Positions 9,603 to 53,314 of a DNA stretch of 64,000 bases are shown here, in pieces (within the stretch, counting starts at the first letter, position 1; each line of letters starts with the position of its first letter). Location: the NCBI RefSeq assembly GCF_900103165.1, contig NZ_FNKY01000001.1:868001-932000 (forward strand), read 5' to 3'. Position numbers and translations under genes: made by a program. This stretch comes from Nitrosospira multiformis (lineage in GTDB: Bacteria; Pseudomonadota; Gammaproteobacteria; Burkholderiales; Nitrosomonadaceae). The notes under the pieces were generated by a model. The model had not been told where the DNA came from. It made no database searches and worked only from the letters and a program-made list of their open reading frames with translations.

Positions 9603-9668
9603 GAAAGAGTTCGCCGCAGCGAAATGCCAGAATAAAGAATTTCAATCCAACTCCCGCCAAACCGAGAA

Positions 9669-9695
9669 ATGAGCGATCAACTACCGGATTCAGGT
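9669..9695 (+). repeat. Family-1 repeat end, overlapping the upstream nadD frame
   Basis: ATGAGCGATCAACTACCGG followed by ATTCAGGT. This is the right-hand end of the inverted-repeat element found repeatedly in this window (best copy at 51755-51960). Only the end and adjoining bases are recognisable here; the body upstream is degenerate or absent. Its ATG is in frame with nadD and would add the peptide MSDQLPDSG. Confidence 0.7.
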
Positions 9696-11406: not shown

Positions 11407-11526
11407 AACCCAAATCCGGCAGTCGACCGCTCATTGAGTAGATCAGTATTATGATTAATGACAATATTTCGTATTATTTGACGCCCATCATTCAGGTGAG
11501 CCCGCTCCAATTGCCGAATTTGGATT
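11407..11526 (-). repeat. Family-1 inverted-repeat element between rlmH and maf
   Basis: A 120-base segment bounded by AACCCAAATCCGGCAGTC on the left and AATTGCCGAATTTGGATT on the right; the ends are imperfect inverted repeats of each other. In minus orientation the segment reads with a body resembling the other copies and contains the ATGAGCGGTCGACTGCCGG core. The right end stops 22 bases before the ATG of maf. Confidence 0.7.
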
Positions 11527-11548: not shown

Positions 11549-12172
11549 ATGACTCTACCGGAGAATCGCATTTATCTTGCTTCCCGCAGCCCCCGCCGGC
11601 GGGAGCTGTTGAAACAGATCGGAGTAAATTTCGCAACGCTATTACTGCGTGAAGCCTTACCCCGCATGGCGGATGTTGATGAGACTTCAATGCCGGATGA
11701 GGCGCCGGAAATTTACACCTCCCGTATCGCCCGGACCAAGGCCGGGACAGGGTGGATGCAGATTATGCAGCGCAAGCTGCCACAGCTCCCGGTGCTCGCT
11801 GCCGACACGATAGTGGTCCTGAAGGGCCGTGTTTTTGGCAAGCCGGAGAGCGCTGCCCATGCGCAAGAGATGCTCCGTGCGCTTTCGGGCCAGACTCATC
11901 AGGTATTGACCGCGGTCGCGGTAGCTGCGCAAAACGGAATACATGTGCGCACCTCCGCTTCCACGGTACGATTCCGCCACATCAGCGAACGCGAAATTCG
12001 ACTGTACCTTGCCAGCGACGAACCGCATGACAAAGCCGGCGGCTATGCGATTCAAGGGATAGCGGCAGTTTTTGTAGCGGAGATTTCCGGCAGCTATAGT
12101 GGCGTGATGGGGCTGCCGCTGTTCGAGACCGGGCAACTGCTGGAAGAATCGGGTATAAAAATATTTCCCTAG
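11549..12172 (+). CDS. maf: Maf-family nucleoside triphosphate pyrophosphatase
   Basis: Hydrolyses non-canonical or excess NTPs (dTTP/UTP or m7GTP type) and is linked to septum inhibition. The hallmark ASRSPRR comes a few residues after the ATG at 11549; AADTIVVL with the catalytic Asp and the DKAGGYAIQG motif are present. Length is 207 residues. The tracked frame could begin at 11525 inside the tail of a family-1 element, but those eight codons are not family-like. The stop TAG is formed by the CTAG target duplication of a family-2 element at 12169-12355, so that insertion lies precisely at the end of the gene. Which of the Maf subtypes is not clear by eye. Confidence 0.93.
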   Translation: MTLPENRIYLASRSPRRRELLKQIGVNFATLLLREALPRMADVDETSMPDEAPEIYTSRIARTKAGTGWMQIMQRKLPQLPVLAADTIVVLKGRVFGKPESAAHAQEMLRALSGQTHQVLTAVAVAAQNGIHVRTSASTVRFRHISEREIRLYLASDEPHDKAGGYAIQGIAAVFVAEISGSYSGVMGLPLFETGQLLEESGIKIFP

Positions 12173-12355
12173 GGCCTGTTAACACTTATTTCGCATCCGC
12201 GTTTTTTGTGCGCAACCCGAAGGGACGGGACGGATTCCATCCAGCCCTTCGTTACTCGCCGCTTACGGAGGCCTGCTCCGCTGCGCGGCTCATGCCTCGT
12301 GCTGGATGAAATCCGTCGCCGTCGCGGGTGCAAAATAAGTGTTAACAGGCCCTAG
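12169..12355. mobile_element. Family-2 MITE-like element with CTAG duplication
   Basis: A 179-base unit (12173-12351) with perfect terminal inverted repeats GGCCTGTTAACACTTATTT / AAATAAGTGTTAACAGGCC, flanked on both sides by CTAG. Inner inverted repeats (ACGGATTCCATCCAGC against GCTGGATGAAATCCGT) make almost the whole unit one imperfect palindrome. There is no coding capacity. A 4-base CTAG duplication fits IS5-like targets (YTAR), so it is probably a non-autonomous relative of such an element. A lone end (TTAACAGGCCCTAG) recurs at 45081-45094. Confidence 0.85.
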
Positions 12356-12359
12356 GTAA

Positions 12360-12458
12360 AAAGGTAAAGATTTATTGACGAAAAGAGACCCTGCGGTTCA
12401 TGGCGCTCCACTGAATAACGAGCTAATCAATGAACAGTCAACTGCCGGATTCAGGATT
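12360..12458 (+). repeat. Family-1 element copy upstream of rng (right end intact)
   Basis: Right end ATGAACAGTCAACTGCCGG followed by ATTCAGGATT ends at 12458, one base before the preferred rng start. The preceding bases (AGGTAAAGATTTATTGACG ... TTCATGGCGCTCC) align with the body of the copies at 46397-46548 and 51755-51960. The left end is lost or was disrupted by the adjoining family-2 element. Confidence 0.65.
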
Positions 12459-21831: not shown

Positions 21832-21865
21832 AGTGGCCAAGCTATTACTGCGGTATTGCCGCTGA

Positions 21866-22711
21866 TCAGGCCTTGCGGCGACGAGCTGCTGAACCCAATC
21901 CGAGAAGACCGATGCCGACTAGTGCGAGTATGCCGGGTTCGGGGATCTGGGTGTCGCCACGCAGATTTGCCGTTCCTTGAAAGCACCACGCTCCTGCCAC
22001 AGCCGTTCCATTCTGGCAACCGTTGGCAAAACCATGCAACTGATCGAAAGGATTCAGGACCCTATTGTTAAATGAACTGGTCAGCACGATGTCTGTGGGA
22101 TTACCCGCAGCATCTAACACACCATTCGCGTTGAGATATGAGATTACCGAAGCATCTCCGGGGCCTGATACATCAAATAAGCCAAAACCCGTACCGCTTG
22201 CGGTTGCGCCAGTCAAGACGCCGCCACCATTCACTACCGCCAGAGGATCGGCGATACCACCGAGATTGCCGTGACCTGTCAGCGTTACCCAGGGATTCCC
22301 ACCGTTAAGTGCCAGGATTGTCGCGAGATTGGTCGGCGAGTCATGATTCAGCAAGTTGAAAGGTGAGGTATCGCTTAGAAAAACCGAAACCGTTGCGCTG
22401 GTGAACTCTACGTAAGAGGAACTGAAGTTCTGTGAATTGTTGAAGTTCGCAACATAAAACAACCCGCAATTACCGCTTCCATCGGCGCAATAGCTACTAT
22501 CTCCATTAAGAGTAGTGATGTAACCGTAAGCGGTAGCGTTCTGCCCGTTTCCATTGATAAAGGTTTGGGCCAGAGTGGCGGTTTCCAGGTGTATGTTGAT
22601 AGGATTTGCCCCCAATGCTCCGAAATCAACACCGCCGACAATAATCGCCGATGCTGGAGCCGATGCCGCGATGCCTATTGCGGCAAGAAGCGTTGTTATA
22701 GTTTTGTTCAT
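21866..22711 (-). CDS. PEP-CTERM sorting-domain protein A
   Basis: Secreted protein of 281 residues with an N-terminal signal peptide (MNKTITTLLAAIGIAASAP, cleavage near ASA-II) and a C-terminal sorting signal: IPEPG, a hydrophobic stretch and the basic tail RRRKA. The exosortase system is known to process such tails. Two cysteine pairs (CADGSGNC and CQNGTAVAGAWC) suggest disulfides. The second ATG at 22711 is chosen: it matches the start and spacing of both paralogues, and the extra ATG at 22714 arises from one base change in the shared leader. The promoter is sigma-54-like. No exosortase gene lies in the window. Function of the mature domain is unknown. Confidence 0.88.
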   Translation of the reverse strand: MNKTITTLLAAIGIAASAPASAIIVGGVDFGALGANPINIHLETATLAQTFINGNGQNATAYGYITTLNGDSSYCADGSGNCGLFYVANFNNSQNFSSSYVEFTSATVSVFLSDTSPFNLLNHDSPTNLATILALNGGNPWVTLTGHGNLGGIADPLAVVNGGGVLTGATASGTGFGLFDVSGPGDASVISYLNANGVLDAAGNPTDIVLTSSFNNRVLNPFDQLHGFANGCQNGTAVAGAWCFQGTANLRGDTQIPEPGILALVGIGLLGLGSAARRRKA

Positions 22712-22813
22712 CATGTGATCCTTAAAAGGTTATAGAAGTAACATTATTTTGGTTCCAACCCCACTGGGGAATTTGAATTTCACTGAACCTTTTGAGCTGC
22801 TACTAACTTATAA

Positions 22814-22827
22814 GCAATCTCCGTGCC
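22814..22827 (-). promoter_or_regulatory. Sigma-54 promoter of PEP-CTERM gene A
   Basis: Minus strand reads GGCAC-GGAGA-TTGC followed by TTATA, the exact GG-N10-GC spacing of RpoN promoters, about 103 bases before the start codon. The same element is found at the equivalent place upstream of genes B and C. Confidence 0.75.
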
Positions 22828-22926
22828 CGATATAAAATTATTTATTATCTTATTGATATATAACAAATAAGTCATATATATGGAGTAGTTCGGTGAGATC
22901 TCATCTGTCAGAGTGTCAAAACCTGT

Positions 22927-22941
22927 GACAGAAGTACTGAA
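22927..22941 (-). promoter_or_regulatory. Candidate activator site of PEP-CTERM gene A
   Basis: Minus strand TTCAGTACTTCTGTC, about 100 bases upstream of the -24 element, the typical distance of enhancer sites for sigma-54 activators. A matching motif precedes genes B (24989-25003) and C (26461-26475). PrsR-type regulators are known to control PEP-CTERM genes with RpoN; assigning this motif to such a regulator is inference. Confidence 0.55.
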
Positions 22942-22987
22942 TTTTGATAGTACTTTGGTACAGGTGAAATAGCCGCGCAGATGACCG

Positions 22988-23465
22988 TTGGTGTTTGCAC
23001 CTGGTCCTCGGTGGTTGGCGCGGATCGCGCGCGTACCGAACAAATCGGGGTGGATTTTCCCACTCCGGTCGACAGCACCAAGTTCGCCGGCATGGCATCG
23101 TGCTTCATTTGAGCGGGGGCAAAGCCCACGGTTGGCGGATAGCAGGATTGGTCGTAGCAGCCGTGGAGTTTGCGGGCAGTTCCTAACCGTCATGCGACGG
23201 CGCGCCAGAAGCACCATCTTTGGACTCTGGTGGCCGGGGGCTCCAAGTGTTGGGCGAGACGAACTGTTCAATCGGTTGCCGAAGTTGATGTCGGCATCCA
23301 TTGAAAGTTGCTTCGATAATCCGGCATTCAAGACGCCAAATCCTATTTGGCGAGCGGGCGTATTTCGGCATCGGTGCAACAGCGCCTCCAAAATTGCCGA
23401 AAGCTCGATTCTACGAAGTTGTGCACGCTGCGCTGGAATGGGGGGCTGGAGATCCACCTAGCGCA
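22988..23465. other. GC-rich stretch of unrecognised origin
   Basis: About 480 bases, clearly richer in G and C than the AT-rich PEP-CTERM leaders around it, with open frames on several strands (for example 22988-23461 plus) but none protein-like to me. It lies directly before the oxidase pseudogene fragment. It could be decayed transposon or gene debris; I could not identify it. Confidence 0.4.
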
Positions 23466-23469
23466 GCCG

Positions 23470-23645
23470 TTACGAAGCTCACCAGGCAATGCTACAAAGC
23501 ATTATTTGCGTGCGGGGGTAAGATCGCTGTATTCCGTATCGAGCCATTGTAGATTCAATACAGCCTCTTATAAAGCCTGAGACGCCTTACGGTAGGCTGT
23601 CACCACACACTCAAAAACAGGAGCTGGATCCTAGCGGATTAACGG
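23470..23645 (+). pseudogene. Decayed 3' end of the VAO/PCMH-family oxidase gene
   Basis: Aligns by eye with the last ~170 bases of the intact gene at 20156-21769: shared blocks include CCAGGCAATG, CTGTATTCCGTATCG, GACGCCTTA and the final CGGATT. The tryptophan codon in the ACCGTGGATTCG block has become TAG at 23550-23552, and there are small indels. Orientation relative to the following PEP-CTERM gene B is the same as that of the intact oxidase to gene A, which indicates an ancestral duplication of the pair. Confidence 0.75.
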
Positions 23646-23860
23646 ATGTTTTCATAAATTCGCTTGATTATTGCGCAGGATTTCGTGTTATAGGGGATTT
23701 TGTAAAAAAGTGGCGTAGCTATTCATGCGCGCCCGACTGAACAAAATTTCCATACGAAACAAAGACCAGAGAGGATCTCTGAATTTATGAACATTCGGAT
23801 TATTAGTGCCAAGGAGATTCTCGCAGGGTTGAATCTGCTGAAACTGTGGTGGTGGCGCAT

Positions 23861-23893
23861 AAAAAAACGCGCCCACCATAGTGGGCGCGTTTA
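23861..23893. terminator. Terminator downstream of PEP-CTERM gene B
   Basis: AAAAAAACGCGCCCAC-CATA-GTGGGCGCGTTT: a perfect ten-pair stem flanked by A and T runs, reading as an intrinsic terminator from the minus strand (and plausibly both). Related in sequence to the terminators after genes A and C. Confidence 0.85.
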
Positions 23894-23934
23894 TCTTTGG
23901 TTATAAAAGTTCGTTACTTCGACATAGCGACTAA

Positions 23935-24780
23935 TCAGGCTTTCCGGCGGCGAACTGCTGCGCCCAATCCGAGAAGACCAATACCGACCAGCCCGAGTAT
24001 GCCGGGTTCCGGAATCTGAGTGTCTCCGCGTATATTTGATGTGCCTTGAAAGCACCAGGCTCCTGGCGCGGCTGTCCCATCCTGGCAACCATTGGCAAAA
24101 CCGTTCGCCACGTCGAAAGAATTCAGCACGGTGTTACTAAATGAACTGGTCAGCACAATGTCTGTTGTACCACCCGCGGCATCCAGCACACCGTTTGCAT
24201 TGAGGAAAGAGATCACCGATGCGTCGCCGGGACCCGATACATCAAATAAGCCGAAACCCGTACCGCCTACGGTTGCACCGGTCAAGATACCACCACCATT
24301 AACAACCGCCAAGGGATCGGCGATACCGCCGAGATTGCCGTGGCCCGTCAGCGTTACCCAGGGATTTCCGCCATTAAGCGCCTGAATTGTCGCGATATTG
24401 GTTGGCGAGTCCTGATTCAGTAAATTGATAGGTGCGGCATTGCTAAAAAAAACCGAAATGGTTGCACTGGTGAATTCAACGTAAGAGGAACTGAAGTTCT
24501 GCGAGTTATTAAAGGTCGCGGTATAAAACAGTCCGCAATTTCCGCTTCCGTCGGCGCAATAGGTGTTATCGCCATTGACGGTGGTGATGAACCCGTAGAT
24601 AGATGCATTTTGCCCGTTACCATTTATGAAGGTTTGGGCAAGGGTGGCTGTCTCGATGTGAGTCCGGGTCGGATCTGCCCCCAATACCCCGAAATCAATA
24701 CCGCCGACGATAACCGCAGATGCCGGAGCAGATGCTGCAATGCCGATTGCGGCAAGAACCGAAGTTATAGTTTTATTCAT
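23935..24780 (-). CDS. PEP-CTERM sorting-domain protein B
   Basis: A 281-residue paralogue of protein A. Signal peptide MNKTITSVLAAIGIAASAP, conserved GGIDFGVLGADP after it, cysteine motifs CADGSGNC and CQDGTAAPGAWC, and C-terminal IPEPG, hydrophobic segment, RRRKA tail. GAGGGTCAC precedes the ATG at 24780 by four bases. Very close to protein C over its whole length, with substitutions concentrated in the middle. Separate sigma-54 promoter and terminator make it an independent transcription unit. Role unknown; extracellular matrix or surface attachment is the usual suggestion for PEP-CTERM proteins. Confidence 0.88.
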   Translation of the reverse strand: MNKTITSVLAAIGIAASAPASAVIVGGIDFGVLGADPTRTHIETATLAQTFINGNGQNASIYGFITTVNGDNTYCADGSGNCGLFYTATFNNSQNFSSSYVEFTSATISVFFSNAAPINLLNQDSPTNIATIQALNGGNPWVTLTGHGNLGGIADPLAVVNGGGILTGATVGGTGFGLFDVSGPGDASVISFLNANGVLDAAGGTTDIVLTSSFSNTVLNSFDVANGFANGCQDGTAAPGAWCFQGTSNIRGDTQIPEPGILGLVGIGLLGLGAAVRRRKA

Positions 24781-24874
24781 GATGTGACCCTCAAAAGATT
24801 AAAAGTAATTGCTTGGTTCCCAGCTCCGCTTGGGAGTTTGAATTTCCCGAGCCTTGATGCTCACTTTTATATAA

Positions 24875-24888
24875 GCAAACCTCGTACC
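24875..24888 (-). promoter_or_regulatory. Sigma-54 promoter of PEP-CTERM gene B
   Basis: Minus strand reads GGTAC-GAGGT-TTGC then TTATAT: one mismatch to the GGCAC box, correct GG-N10-GC spacing, about 95 bases before the ATG. Confidence 0.7.
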
Positions 24889-24988
24889 TAAAATGTATAA
24901 CATTTCTTAACTAGCTAATATTAATATGAAAGATGGTATCTTTTAAACAATTCAGTGAGATCCTTTTTATTAAACTATTAAAATTCTC

Positions 24989-25003
24989 GACAGAAGTACT
25001 GAA
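24989..25003 (-). promoter_or_regulatory. Candidate activator site of PEP-CTERM gene B
   Basis: Minus strand GATTCAGTACTTCTGTCGAG contains the same 12-base core as gene A (AGTACTTCTGTC), about 100 bases upstream of the -24 box. Confidence 0.55.
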
Positions 25004-25022
25004 TCTCGACTCTTCCAGAGTG

Positions 25023-25142
25023 TTGACTTGCATTGAACCCCATGGCCGTCAGCCCATGCCGCTGAAGAGCATGTTGCGCCTCTATTGCATGCATCTACCG
25101 TGGCCTGGTGAAGCTGTACTTGCTGTGTGTGGCAGCGGTTGA
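25023..25142 (+). pseudogene. IS5-family transposase fragment
   Basis: The plus-strand frame reads LTCIEPHGRQPMPLKSMLRL then YCMHLPW, which resembles the N-terminal IEPHYP...RPPMPLETMLRI block of IS5-type DDE transposases. The match covers about 25 codons; no catalytic residues or terminal repeats remain. It lies in the spacer between PEP-CTERM genes B and C, where transposition or recombination could have helped to copy the genes. Confidence 0.5.
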
Positions 25143-25335
25143 TGGTCGCCTAAAGGGTGAAAGTACGTCCGCAGCACCCCAAAGCGGACAATGAAGCAGA
25201 AAAAAAAACTCGGCGACGAACGCACCGAAGAATGGGCTGCCGGTCGATCTGTATTCAAAAAACCGGCAGTAGTACCCAAGAATCTGGAAGCCACTCTTTG
25301 TTCAGCGCTTCCTTAATTAAAGTTGTAGCCATCAT

Positions 25336-25376
25336 ACAAACAGACGCGCCCACTCTAAGTGGGCGCGTCTGTTTGT
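25336..25376. terminator. Perfect 19-bp palindromic terminator after PEP-CTERM gene C
   Basis: ACAAACAGACGCGCCCACT, loop CTA, and its exact reverse complement. The stem is unusually long and perfect. The central GCGCCCAC/GTGGGCGC is shared with the terminator of gene B. Confidence 0.85.
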
Positions 25377-25407
25377 GTAAAGCTTGTTACCGCGGTATTG
25401 CGGCTGA

Positions 25408-26253
25408 TCAGGCTTTGCGGCGGCGGGCTGCTGCGCCCAATCCAAGAAGACCGATGCCGACCAACCCGAGTATGCCGGGTTCGGGGATTTGAGTGTCGCC
25501 ACGCAAATTTGCCGTCCCTTGAAAGCACCAGGCGCCCACCGCAGCTGTCCCATTCTGGCAACCGGTGGCAAAACCATTCGCTACGTCGAAAGCATTCAGC
25601 ACTGCGTTGTTAAATGAGCTGGTCAGCGCAATGTCCGTTGCACCACCCACGGCGTCCAGCACGCCGTTTGCGTTGAGGAATGAAATCACCGAAGCATCGC
25701 CTGGACCTGTCACATCAAACAGGCCAAAACCCGTACCACTCAAAGTTCCACCGGTCAAGATACCGCCGCCATTCACTACCGCCAAAGGATCGGCGATACC
25801 GCCGAGATTGCCGTGACCCGTCAGCGTCACCCAGGGATTTCCGCCATTAAGTCCGTTAATAAATGCAACATTGGTCGGCGAGTCCTGAGTCAGCAAATTG
25901 AGAGGGGAGACATTGCTATAAAAAACCGAAACGGTTGCACTGGTGAATTCGACGTAGGACGAGCTGAAGTTTTGCGAACCGCTAAAGGTCGCGGTATAGA
26001 ACAGCCCGCAATTACCGCTTCCGTCAGCGCAATAGGTATTATCGCCATTGACGGTCGTAATGTACCCATAGACAGTATTACTTTGCCCATTACCATTTAC
26101 GAAGGTTTGGGCAAGCGTGGCGGTCTCCAGATGTGTACGGGTGGGATCTCCCCCCAACACCCCGAAATCAATGCCACCGACGATGATCGCCGATGCCGGA
26201 GCCGATGCTGCAAGGCCGATTGCGGCGAGAACCGAAGTTATAGTTTTATTCAT
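25408..26253 (-). CDS. PEP-CTERM sorting-domain protein C
   Basis: Third 281-residue paralogue. Same architecture: MNKTITSVLAAIGLAASAP signal peptide, GGIDFGVLGGDP, CADGSGNC and CQNGTAAVGAWC cysteine pairs, IPEPG sorting motif, hydrophobic segment and RRRKA tail. The leader TTTTGAGGGTCACATC before ATG 26253 is identical to that of gene B. It differs from B mostly between residues 90 and 210. It has its own sigma-54 promoter and the strongest terminator of the set. Keeping three intact copies beside pseudogene debris suggests selection for dose or for variants. Confidence 0.88.
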   Translation of the reverse strand: MNKTITSVLAAIGLAASAPASAIIVGGIDFGVLGGDPTRTHLETATLAQTFVNGNGQSNTVYGYITTVNGDNTYCADGSGNCGLFYTATFSGSQNFSSSYVEFTSATVSVFYSNVSPLNLLTQDSPTNVAFINGLNGGNPWVTLTGHGNLGGIADPLAVVNGGGILTGGTLSGTGFGLFDVTGPGDASVISFLNANGVLDAVGGATDIALTSSFNNAVLNAFDVANGFATGCQNGTAAVGAWCFQGTANLRGDTQIPEPGILGLVGIGLLGLGAAARRRKA

Positions 26254-30784: not shown

Positions 30785-30890
30785 AATCCTGAATCCGGCA
30801 GTCGACCGCTCAGTGCTTGAATGGCATCATTTGGACAAAATTCAGGCTTGCTAGGATACCGTTATATTATCATGAGAGACGATCATTAAT
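30785..30890 (-). repeat. Family-1 element, one end clear
   Basis: Left end AATCCTGAATCCGGCAGTCG followed by ACCGCTCAGTGC matches the family-1 terminal repeat and adjoining core. The opposite end is degenerate; the boundary near 30890 is a guess. It occupies the divergent gap between the redoxin gene and rsmE. Confidence 0.55.
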
Positions 30891-40274: not shown

Positions 40275-40404
40275 TCTAAATCCGGTAGTTGTAGCAAACC
40301 CACTAAAGAGGTAAGGGTCGCACGATGCGAAAATACTTTGTCAATCATAGTGCCGGACTTAAAAGATGAGCGAAAAATGAACCACTAATCGCTGGATTCA
40401 GGAT
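40273..40404. repeat. Family-1 element between pgk and pyk
   Basis: 132 bases bounded by ATTCTAAATCCGGTAGTT on the left and a degenerate CTAATCGCTGGATTCAGGAT on the right. The body (AGGTAAGGGTCGC ... TCAATCATAGTGCC) matches the longer copies. The left end directly supplies the bases before the pyk ATG on the minus strand. Confidence 0.75.
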
Positions 40405-46396: not shown

Positions 46397-46548
46397 ATTT
46401 AGCTGAATTCGTGAGTTGGACAGAGTACGATCCGTCCTGTAGCGAATTCACCAGAAAGATGGAGATCAAGTTGGGTGGAAAGTCATTACAGATCATAGTG
46501 CTTAGCTAAGAAGTCCTAAAAAATGAATAGTCAATTGCCGGGTTCAGG
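46397..46548 (+). repeat. Family-1 element between the NtrX-like and NtrY-like genes
   Basis: About 150 bases. The right end reads ATGAATAGTCAATTGCCGG then GTTCAGGT; the left end AATTTAGCTGAATTCGTGAG is degenerate and begins one base upstream of the response-regulator ATG. The body (GCGAATTCACCAGAAAGATGG ... ATTACAGATCATAG, quoted in parts) aligns with the copies at 51755 and 53200. Confidence 0.7.
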
Positions 46549-50704: not shown

Positions 50705-50714
50705 TCCGGCATTC

Positions 50715-50834
50715 AACCTAAATCCGGCAGTTGTAGCGGGTTTATCAAGAAGCTGAAATTCGAGTGTGACAAAAAATCATTATGGATCATGGCATTGAGC
50801 AGTAAAATAAAAGATCAACCGCTAAGTTTGGGTT
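50715..50834 (-). repeat. Family-1 element between fmt and rsmB, entering fmt
   Basis: 120 bases with the clean end AACCTAAATCCGGCAGTT at 50715-50732 and a degenerate end AACCGCTAAGTTTGGGTT at 50817-50834. The degenerate end encodes the last codons and stop of fmt (EPKLSG); the clean end stops 10 bases before the rsmB ATG. The body has ATTATGGATCATGGC, shared with other copies. Confidence 0.72.
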
Positions 50835-51756
50835 CAAACCGGTCGCCCGGCCGCAATGGATGCCCCGAGAGAAATTCTGCCGCACTCATCTTTTTTCCAT
50901 CAGATCTCTGCAAGACTTCCAGTATGAGCGCCCCTTCGCCACAGACCACCACGATTCCGTCGCGTCCTGTTGCCACAATTTCTCCCGGTTGGCCAGCGGC
51001 ATCCGCAGTGACCCTTGTCTGCCATATTTTCATAGCGATTCCACGTACCCGCGAATAAGCGCCGGGGCGAGGATTGAACGCCCGTACTACACGGTTGATG
51101 TTCTCCGCGCTTAGTTGCCAGTCAATTTCCGCTTCATTTTTTTCCAGTTTCGGTGCGTAAGTCGCGGCAATTTCATTCTGAGGAACTCCGGAAAGCATAT
51201 CTTCACGCAAATGCGCCAATGCTTCCACGATGCAAACTGCTCCCAATAAGGCAAGCCTATCATGCAGAGTTTGCGCGGTGTCATCCTCTGCAATTGCGTC
51301 GCTTCGCTGCAACAGCATTGCGCCCGTATCCAGGCCGCGATCCATTTGTATGATGGTGATCCCGGTCTCCCGGTCTCCCGCTAATATTGCCCGCTGGATT
51401 GGGGCGGCTCCCCGCCAGCGGGGCAGCAAGGAAGCATGGATGTTAAGACAACCCAGGCGGGGGATGCTCAAAACAGCTGAAGGCAGAATCAGTCCATAGG
51501 CGACAACCACCATGACATCCGCACCGATGGCAGCGAGTTGCGCGTGCAACTCCGGTTGTTTAAGCGAATAGGGCTGCAGCAAGGTAAATGTGCGTTGTTG
51601 TGCCAGCAATTTGATCGCGCTTGCGGTGGGCTTCATGCCCCGTCCGGAAGGGCGGTCTGGCTGGGTCAGCACCAATGCAATCTCATGCCCGGCATTTGCC
51701 AAGGCTTCAAGCGCGGGAACGGAGAATGGCGGGGTGCCCGCAAAAATAATTTTCAA
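50815..51756 (-). CDS. fmt: Methionyl-tRNA formyltransferase
   Basis: Formylates initiator Met-tRNA using 10-formyl-THF. 313 residues from a TTG at 51756: KIIFAGTPPFSVPALEAL at the N-terminus, the catalytic LNIHASLLPRWRGAAPIQ with Asn/His, and GITIIQMDRGLDTGAML are diagnostic; the C-terminal OB-like domain follows. The TTG start and its preceding TTTAGG lie inside a family-1 repeat end (CCGGATTTAGG-TTG), and the last few codons lie in another copy, so both ends of this essential gene are repeat-bounded. The longer frame to 51843 has no family similarity. def lies upstream, the classical def-fmt pair split by the repeat. Confidence 0.94.
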   Translation of the reverse strand: MKIIFAGTPPFSVPALEALANAGHEIALVLTQPDRPSGRGMKPTASAIKLLAQQRTFTLLQPYSLKQPELHAQLAAIGADVMVVVAYGLILPSAVLSIPRLGCLNIHASLLPRWRGAAPIQRAILAGDRETGITIIQMDRGLDTGAMLLQRSDAIAEDDTAQTLHDRLALLGAVCIVEALAHLREDMLSGVPQNEIAATYAPKLEKNEAEIDWQLSAENINRVVRAFNPRPGAYSRVRGIAMKIWQTRVTADAAGQPGEIVATGRDGIVVVCGEGALILEVLQRSDGKKMSAAEFLSGHPLRPGDRFEPKLSG

Positions 51757-51960
51757 CCTAAATCCGGCAGTTGGGTGAAGTGGAATAGGTACAGGGCAAG
51801 GCGTTGCAGCGCGGCCGTGTGCCGCAAGAACCGTGTAACCCATCCTTTAGCGAACTCGCCCGGAAGGTGAAGGTCAAGGGAGGCAAAAAGTTATTACGGG
51901 TCATGGTGCCTAGTTGGCAAAGGAGCTAAAGAATGAGCGGTCAACTGCCGGATTCAGGTT
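51755..51960 (+). repeat. Family-1 element, longest and best-preserved copy
   Basis: 206 bases from AACCTAAATCCGGCAGTT (51755-51772) to AACTGCCGGATTCAGGTT (51943-51960): 17 of 18 terminal bases are complementary. The body includes AGGTGAAGGTCAAGGGAGGC, AAAAAGTTATTACGGGTCAT and GGAGCTAAAGAATGAGCGG, which define the family. No coding capacity beyond short frames. Its left end contains the fmt start. Confidence 0.8.
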
Positions 51961-52225
51961 CATATAGAACGCGGTTTAGCCAGGAGCGTACACGAAGAAG
52001 ACCCGCCGAAGAGGCGTGGCCGCCTCCCATCAGGACCGCTGGGCAAATACCTTGCAGGTGCACCTCGCGCGATGCGTCTTGGCGTCGTAGATCAAGCCCG
52101 CGTCGTACGTCCTGTGATTTCCGTTTTTGCCAGCAACGCACTTGACAACCCGCCGGATCTATTCAGATGCCTCTCAAATTCAGCGGTCAATGATTCACAC
52201 TTGCCGGTGGCCGGGAAACCGGCCC
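51961..52225. other. Spacer between the repeat element and def
   Basis: GC-rich stretch with frames on both strands (for instance 51941-52141 minus) but none with a recognisable product. Nothing more was seen. Confidence 0.35.
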
Positions 52226-53073: not shown

Positions 53074-53199
53074 CACCTAAATCCGGCAGTTGGCCGCCCA
53101 TTCATCAATCTGGAATTATGATCCGTAGAGAATTTTTGTGCCATTTTTGATTCTTGCTTCCTGGGTGCGTTCGCCCCGTCCAACTACCGGATTTAGGTT
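53074..53199 (-). repeat. Family-1 element (minus orientation) upstream of dprA
   Basis: 126 bases bounded by CACCTAAATCCGGCAGTT and AACTACCGGATTTAGGTT. Read on the minus strand it contains CTACGGATCATAATTCCAG and GATGAATGGGCGGCCAACTG, as in the other copies. It abuts a second copy in the opposite orientation. Confidence 0.78.
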
Positions 53200-53314
53200 A
53201 AATCCATCTAAGTTAACTCACCAAAGCGAAGGTCAAGTGATGCAAAAAATTATTCCGGGTTATGGCGCCTGGAAATGGGCTGGAAAATGAGCGATCAAAC
53301 TGCCGGATTCATGG
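53200..53314 (+). repeat. Family-1 element (plus orientation) ending at dprA
   Basis: Body AAGCGAAGGTCAAGTGATGC and TTATTCCGGGTTATGGCGCC, right end ATGAGCGATCAAACTGCCGG then ATTCATGG. It seems to share the junction end (53182-53199) with its neighbour. The right end stops 10 bases before the dprA ATG. Confidence 0.72.

Follow-up and report, generated by a model that had tools for sequence, protein, structure and literature searches.

REP and BIME sequences are not expected to generate a target duplication, and the class of transposase that mobilizes them differs from that of the insertion sequences considered below. The interiors of bacterial MITEs, in turn, are often treated as filler. ISEcp1, a member of the IS1380 group, has the ends CCTAGATTCTACGT / ACGTGGAATTTAGG and direct repeats of 4–5 bp, according to the passages on it in PMC7864471. 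The Beta-proteobacterial repeat element (BRE; Hot et al. 2011, PMC3110155) is mostly intergenic, occurs in several Betaproteobacteria and was discovered through detected small RNAs (bprJ), as the sections of that paper devoted to it state; by its description, it is the nearest named repeat to the element presented here. Among the titles and abstracts returned by searches of an open-access library, none describes this element, its kind or its sequence, and those returned for IS1380 ends do not either, though a full text may do so, IS1380 and MITE papers included; a search with six sequence strings returned one plant-pathogen paper only.

The window analysed is a stretch of 64,000 nucleotides of the Nitrosospira multiformis genome (contig NZ_FNKY01000001.1, positions 868,001 to 932,000), the sequence of which matches Nitrosospira sp. 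NpAV at 87–88%. The initial annotation listed ten places in it with a dispersed inverted-repeat family (family 1), and each of them contains an element or a fragment: the repeats are copies and relics of a non-autonomous MITE. The full-length element, defined by an alignment of 26 N. multiformis copies, is 236 bp long, short and non-coding as MITEs are, with terminal inverted repeats of 17–18 nt and the ends CCTRAATCCGGYAGTTG. Its borders are CCT...AGG, and the flanking AA and TT are part of a 5-bp target duplication; since the two outer bases on each side belong to this duplication, the AACCT–AGGTT form of 240 bp is the 236-bp element proper. The inverted-repeat ends proposed earlier are real, except for the AA/TT, which is target and not element. 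The proposed size of 115–206 bp describes shortened window copies and not the full-length form, and it stands that the repeat encodes nothing.

With up to 4 mismatches allowed, the 18-nt end is found at thirteen sites of the window and nowhere in five mononucleotide shuffles. Further copies, the lack of which would have spoken against a family, are abundant genome-wide (3.5 Mb, two contigs): a 16-nt end with at most 2 mismatches occurs at 105 + 99 = 204 sites, whereas its reversal, used as a control, occurs at 2 + 1 = 3, and BLAST with a 206-bp query recovers 115 pieces (E ≤ 10). When at most one mismatch is allowed, the genome has 166 end sites and 22 other genomes of the genus have between 0 and 141, some site being present in 27 of the 61 genomes searched, N. 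multiformis included. The N. multiformis alignment also reveals a variant of 377–390 bp in which the tip of the large hairpin bears a GC-rich insert. Six loci of this variant are found among the N. multiformis genome and Nitrosovibrio and Nitrosospira records.

No window copy is full-length; all of them are shortened, decayed or relics (Table 1), namely one 202-bp copy, four without the large hairpin (116–128 bp), two decayed copies and three right-end relics. A maf-like ORF called at 11525 has its start in the right repeat of the 11409 copy. The right end reads ATG AGC GGT CAA CTG CCG GAT (with variants) at the starts of the ORFs called at 9669 and 12430, whose predicted N-termini would derive from the element. 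Elsewhere in the window, positions 21837–25686 hold three repeated stretches in ORFs of 281–282 aa, 77–84% alike over 300 nt; a Pfam scan of one of these ORFs gave no match.

Table 1. Family 1 copies and relics in the window (R1, covariance model of the core).
Feature	Position	Strand	Flanks and remarks
Longest copy, 202 bp	51757..51958	+	TTCAA (51752-51756) / TTCAT (51959-51963), 4/5 alike; internal losses from 236-bp element; fold in sense orientation; R1 42.6 bits, E 1.9e-6
Short copy without hairpin, 116 bp	50717..50832	+	exact TTCAA duplication, 50712-50716 / 50833-50837
Short copy without hairpin, 128 bp	40275..40402	+	exact ATCAT duplication
Short copy without hairpin, 116 bp	11409..11524	-	exact TTGAA duplication
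Short copy without hairpin, 122 bp	53076..53197	-	TTGCA / TTAAA, 3/5 alike
Decayed copy	53198..53313	+	no duplication; abuts 53076 copy, upstream of dprA
Decayed copy, 146 bp	46403..46548	+	no duplication; R1 21.1 bits, E 0.018
Right-end relic	12381..12455	+	ribonuclease E/G-family ORF called at 12430 begins within relic
Right-end relic	9665..9694	+	nadD-like ORF called at 9669 begins within relic
Right-end relic	30788..30860	-	upstream of rsmE-like gene

The element has a predicted fold, in which the terminal repeats form a closing stem around a hairpin of ~120 nt and a small CTCACC/GGTGAG hairpin. The main hairpin contains two conserved internal-loop strands, GGCAAGGCGC / GCAACGCNGCC, which are, with GTAGCG and AGCGGTCAACTG, the best-conserved stretches. 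Two alignments have been used to evaluate this structure. A1 holds 48 of 61 candidate copies; one copy with ends and no core, a spurious pair and a tandem pair were left out, as were ten further copies, some with indels, to limit its size. A4 comprises 32 elements of 233–237 bp from 23 of the 24 usable loci of the order and nine others (one 259-bp element was omitted), drawn from 17 genera of the genome set and six named or MAG records that possibly overlap with them; its mean identity outside the ends is 57%, with a minimum of 37%. With structures predicted from the same alignments on which they are scored, and shuffles that keep relatedness, 95.5% of the cells pair in A1 (31–40% in slid controls) and 93.8% in A4, and two-sided changes affect 32 of 58 pairs in A1 (shuffles 18.6 ± 2.5) and 49 of 67 in A4 (shuffles 31.2 ± 2.4). 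None of 500 shuffles reaches any of five measures in A1, and 0 of 500 match the observed values in A4, the main hairpin of which has two-sided changes in 30 of its 33 pairs.

This fold belongs to one strand. Consensus energies are lower for the sense than for the antisense strand in A1 (−67.6 versus −29.0) and in A4 (−87.2 versus −54.5), and the MFE favours the sense strand in 46 of 48 A1 elements. Among pairs with a Watson–Crick majority, G.U outnumbers A.C by 96 to 26 in A1 and by 72 to 8 in the main hairpin of A4. This majority-pair count favours whichever strand was predicted, as the antisense structure of A1 also gives 48 G.U against 21 A.C on its own strand, and a filter-free count was therefore used: over the main-hairpin register, A4 has 129 G.U and 12 A.C in 35 pairs (24 pairs versus 2), and A1 has 224 and 32 in 31 pairs. 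Compensatory changes together with this one-strand excess of G.U argue for selection on RNA or on a single strand, so that the interior appears to be selected in that form on one strand only, and we infer from these models that the core may function as RNA. Rfam gives no gathering match in the window, and in five element-bearing loci the two matches that reach E ≤ 1 score below gathering and lie outside the elements. A promoter and terminator scan of one element found three weak promoter sites and no terminator.

The orientation of the fold with respect to the host genes is also biased. A set of 72 elements was examined, of which 62 were scored, 2 were dropped as the same site and 8 were not scorable. 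Between co-directional genes (flanking ORFs of at least 100 codons) the fold is antisense in 29 cases and sense in 8 (p = 7.5e-4), the proportions being 18 to 5 in the same genus and 11 to 3 in the others; with flanking ORFs of at least 200 codons they are 25 to 4. The folded strand is therefore usually not the one present in host messages, which disfavours a simple role as mRNA leader, and we read the bias as selection against a strong hairpin in mRNA.

It could be argued that the element is an ordinary MITE without RNA function, the hairpin of which is kept only because DNA symmetry aids transposition or is tolerated. The closing stem and the hairpins are indeed inverted repeats in DNA as well, the orientation bias runs against genes and not for them, and no transcript is known. 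Symmetry of double-stranded DNA, however, predicts neither the unfiltered excess of G.U over A.C nor the greater stability of the sense strand. Window copies with perfect duplications and no hairpin also speak against it, since they indicate that the large hairpin is probably dispensable for transposition, unless it was lost after insertion. We regard such an ordinary MITE without RNA function as less likely than not.

The reading of the interior as a maintained fold has been extended with model R1, a covariance model built from 36 cores without their ends, mostly from the same genus as N. multiformis. A profile scan of other genomes, advised in the initial annotation, thereby uncovers many carriers across the order: of 300 genomes examined in the order, 76 have an R1 match at E ≤ 1e-3. 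With the stricter limit of E ≤ 1e-8 there are still 37, distributed over 22 genera and 17 families, N. multiformis included. Named hosts are Nitrosospira, Nitrosovibrio, Tibeticola, a Limnohabitans MAG, other Comamonadaceae and Burkholderiales MAGs, and a Polaromonas plasmid. In 25 of 30 loci, one of them from N. multiformis, the two ends match each other at 14 or more of 17 positions and the flanks agree at 4 or more of 5, while the other five have no terminal repeat of the required length. The ends vary between genera (CCTAGAAACCGCAGTTG, CCTAGAAACCTCAGTTG, CCTAGAAACGGCAGTTG, CCTTGATTCCCCAGTTG, CCTGAAAACCGCGGTTG and others) and remain matched within each element.

Across the phylum, 299 genomes were sampled, and R1 matches 22 of them (E ≤ 1e-3). 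Nine of the 22 belong to the order, and the best value among the 13 from outside it is 9.7e-7. Twenty stretches were taken from six of these 13 genomes; in 14 of them the core lies between inverted repeats of at least 25 nt with other ends, which include AGTGTCCTGTCTC and CTAGGGCGTGTTGACATT and the arms of which may be part hairpin stem, and the other 6 gave no terminal repeat of the required length. Eight of the 20 bear two opposed R1 matches within about 270 bp, some share a GGUCAUUCC hairpin tip, and the stretches examined show no convincing direct repeats beside the arms. These relatives are weaker and would be a lead to common descent rather than proof of it. The window itself holds at 12164–12360 a different MITE-like element, with 38-nt arms 92% complementary and CTAG outermost on both sides, that directly precedes a family 1 right-end relic; its ends (GGCCTGTTAACACTT) are similar to the ends that some core-bearing elements have outside the order, and it has no R1 match. 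We advance tentatively, as a possibility that falls short of an even chance, that the core could represent a new class of non-coding RNA, a structured module that is mobile because it is carried as cargo across Pseudomonadota by MITEs with several unrelated sets of terminal repeats; selection would then keep the RNA and not the ends, and the product would be a stand-alone or antisense RNA.

Insertion of the element duplicates 5 bp of the target, usually WTNAW. Exact 5-bp direct repeats flank 14 of the 26 N. multiformis copies, which were not selected for flank agreement. A wider set of 63 records (59 distinct sequences), selected by flanks agreeing at 4 or 5 of 5 positions and with at least two records that are one site entered twice, has an exact duplication in 45 (14 from N. 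multiformis and 31 others); in every one of these the second base is T and the fourth is A. Three of the seven two-ended window copies carry an exact duplication (11409, 40275, 50717), and another (51757) agrees at 4 of 5. Comparison of orthologous gaps, also proposed at the outset, reveals empty sites in relatives. At the 50717 site N. multiformis reads TTCAA-element-TTCAA. Of the 12 same-genus genomes shown, 11 lack the element and have TTCAA only once, followed by AGCG; G004 is the one that differs. The 51757 site is empty, with the fmt start (CAT) intact, in 11 of the 12 same-genus genomes shown, and occupied in G021.

The left duplication at this last site is TTCAA in both N. multiformis and G021, so that in the two occupied genomes the old fmt ATG is now TTG; an in-frame ATG at 51843, inside the N. 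multiformis element, could be an alternative fmt start. Similarly, the left ATCAT of the 40275 copy includes the ATG of a pyruvate kinase ORF (40274, minus strand). The duplication includes the ATG of an ORF of at least 60 codons in 8 of 65 scorable elements, these being part of 77 distinct elements from several species, one of them entered twice. When the flanks of the 65 are joined, 22, as an upper bound, yield a spanning ORF of at least 100 codons, compared with 572 of 672 random places.

The transposase responsible would have to be supplied from elsewhere. Viral contigs were scanned with a pattern, which yielded 16 stretches, and two of them, L183 and L187, identical in sequence there, contain an insertion sequence of 1638 bp bounded by CCTAAATCCGGCAGTTG / CCTAAAAACGGCAGTTG; L187, which includes both flanks, shows ATTAG as the target duplication. 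Its 523-aa open frame matches PF13701 (1.3e-24, above the cut-off), and its match to NF033539 (7.5e-45, 153 bits) lies below the 180-bit cut-off, for which reason this partner is filed as IS1380-related only. In G127, another genome of the same order, a related transposase is present in five or more copies. Of five loci read there, one is without clean ends, and each of the other four is an element of 1639 bp that is bounded by CCTAAATCCGGCAGTTA / CCTATTTCCGGCAGTTG and has a perfect duplication (ATAAA, ATCAC, TTCAT and ATTAT). As the ends of the L187 and G127 insertion sequences are near-identical to those of the MITE, CCT included, and their duplications are of the same kind, an IS1380-related insertion sequence of this type is the likely donor type. 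A transposase gene with the same ends, which the initial annotation advised looking for, therefore exists in L187 and G127; in the N. multiformis genome no PF13701, NF033539 or L187-like transposase was found at the limits used, so that the donor is absent, lost or undetected there.

G127 is not one of the 76 core-bearing genomes of the order. On the Polaromonas plasmid, an insertion sequence with related ends lies 357 bp from a core-bearing element of 234 bp, and the ends of the two nearly match. Co-occurrence with the core shows no clear enrichment for L187-like insertion sequences (5 of 15 genomes that have one, about 3.8 expected) and a modest one for NF033539 matches (16 of 39, one-sided Fisher p = 0.016). 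Within the genus, L187-like matches occur in G016 (457-aa open frame, 32%), G003 (45%, with stops) and G002 (a fragment). They are putative remnants or distant relatives of the L187 protein, and their three loci have no MITE-like end at up to 3 mismatches. Canonical IS1380 (NF033539) loci were rejected as partner: none of the 17 examined in the order has MITE-like ends, several being without clear ends. Ten translated ORFs adjoining ends, tried as transposase candidates, resemble by eye host genes or unknowns.

Elements with these ends are also present in six contigs classed as viral (IMG/VR) and might pass from one host to another in this way. In five Chlamydiae MAG loci (163 bp) and three Acidobacteria MAG loci (184–193 bp), other interiors lie between the same ends and duplications, and these interiors do not cluster with family 1. 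Such elements suggest a widely used transposase specificity, and ends alone consequently do not define family 1.

The explanation that we hold with considerable confidence is that of a MITE moved in trans by an IS1380-related transposase, the interior of which is a conserved one-strand fold, putatively kept as cargo. The insertion sequence would supply the transposase, which would recognise the matched ends and insert the element at NTNAN, usually WTNAW, duplicating 5 bp. As ATGAA and ATGAT fit this target, some insertions would fall on start codons, such as those of fmt and pyruvate kinase. The RNA would be a maintained cargo, and hosts would tolerate the element mainly when its fold is antisense to the flanking genes.

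A REP/BIME-like element, the other reading offered in the initial annotation, would be mobilized by a transposase of the single-strand type (Y1, TnpA-REP) and would agree with the high copy number, the hairpin, the mostly intergenic location seen when flanks are joined and the two opposed cores that elements outside the order can carry. It is nevertheless very improbable, being already contradicted by the target duplications and further by the empty sites, the long matched terminal repeats and an insertion sequence of the DDE family with near-identical ends. That the repeats are conserved cis-regulatory leaders of particular housekeeping genes, as copies upstream of fmt, rsmB, nadD-like, ribonuclease E/G and dprA genes might suggest, can practically be dismissed, because 11 of the 12 same-genus genomes shown lack the element at two sites and end-site counts are so uneven within the genus.

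The MITE offers a concrete way in which housekeeping genes have their start codons and 5' ends rewritten. With a model free of ends, the element is recovered at strong scores in 22 genera, though the ends differ between genera as matched pairs. Should the fold act as an RNA, it would represent a large RNA family that Rfam does not contain and that is spread by transposition, and its strand, boundaries and internal loop can readily be predicted.

In comparison with known systems, IS1380 and ISEcp1 resemble the partner insertion sequence in their CCT ends and 4–5-bp duplications, and the partner transposase matches both NF033539 and PF13701. The direct repeats given for ISEcp1 in the passages of PMC7864471 concerned (TCATA, TGGGT, GATAA, GTTC, ATTTC), however, do not fit NTNAN, and, unlike IS1380, the repeat encodes nothing. 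REP and BIME share with the element intergenic hairpins in many copies. NEMIS/Correia, RUP and ERIC, which section 14 of PMC3110155 names together, are likewise short, intergenic and present in many copies. BRE, compared by description only, is ~90 bp long and often in tandem, and section 14 of PMC3110155 mentions neither terminal repeats nor duplications for it. The element itself has an order-wide, conserved strand-specific fold, a near-constant length of 233–237 bp in the 32 aligned elements, and ends that change as matched pairs.
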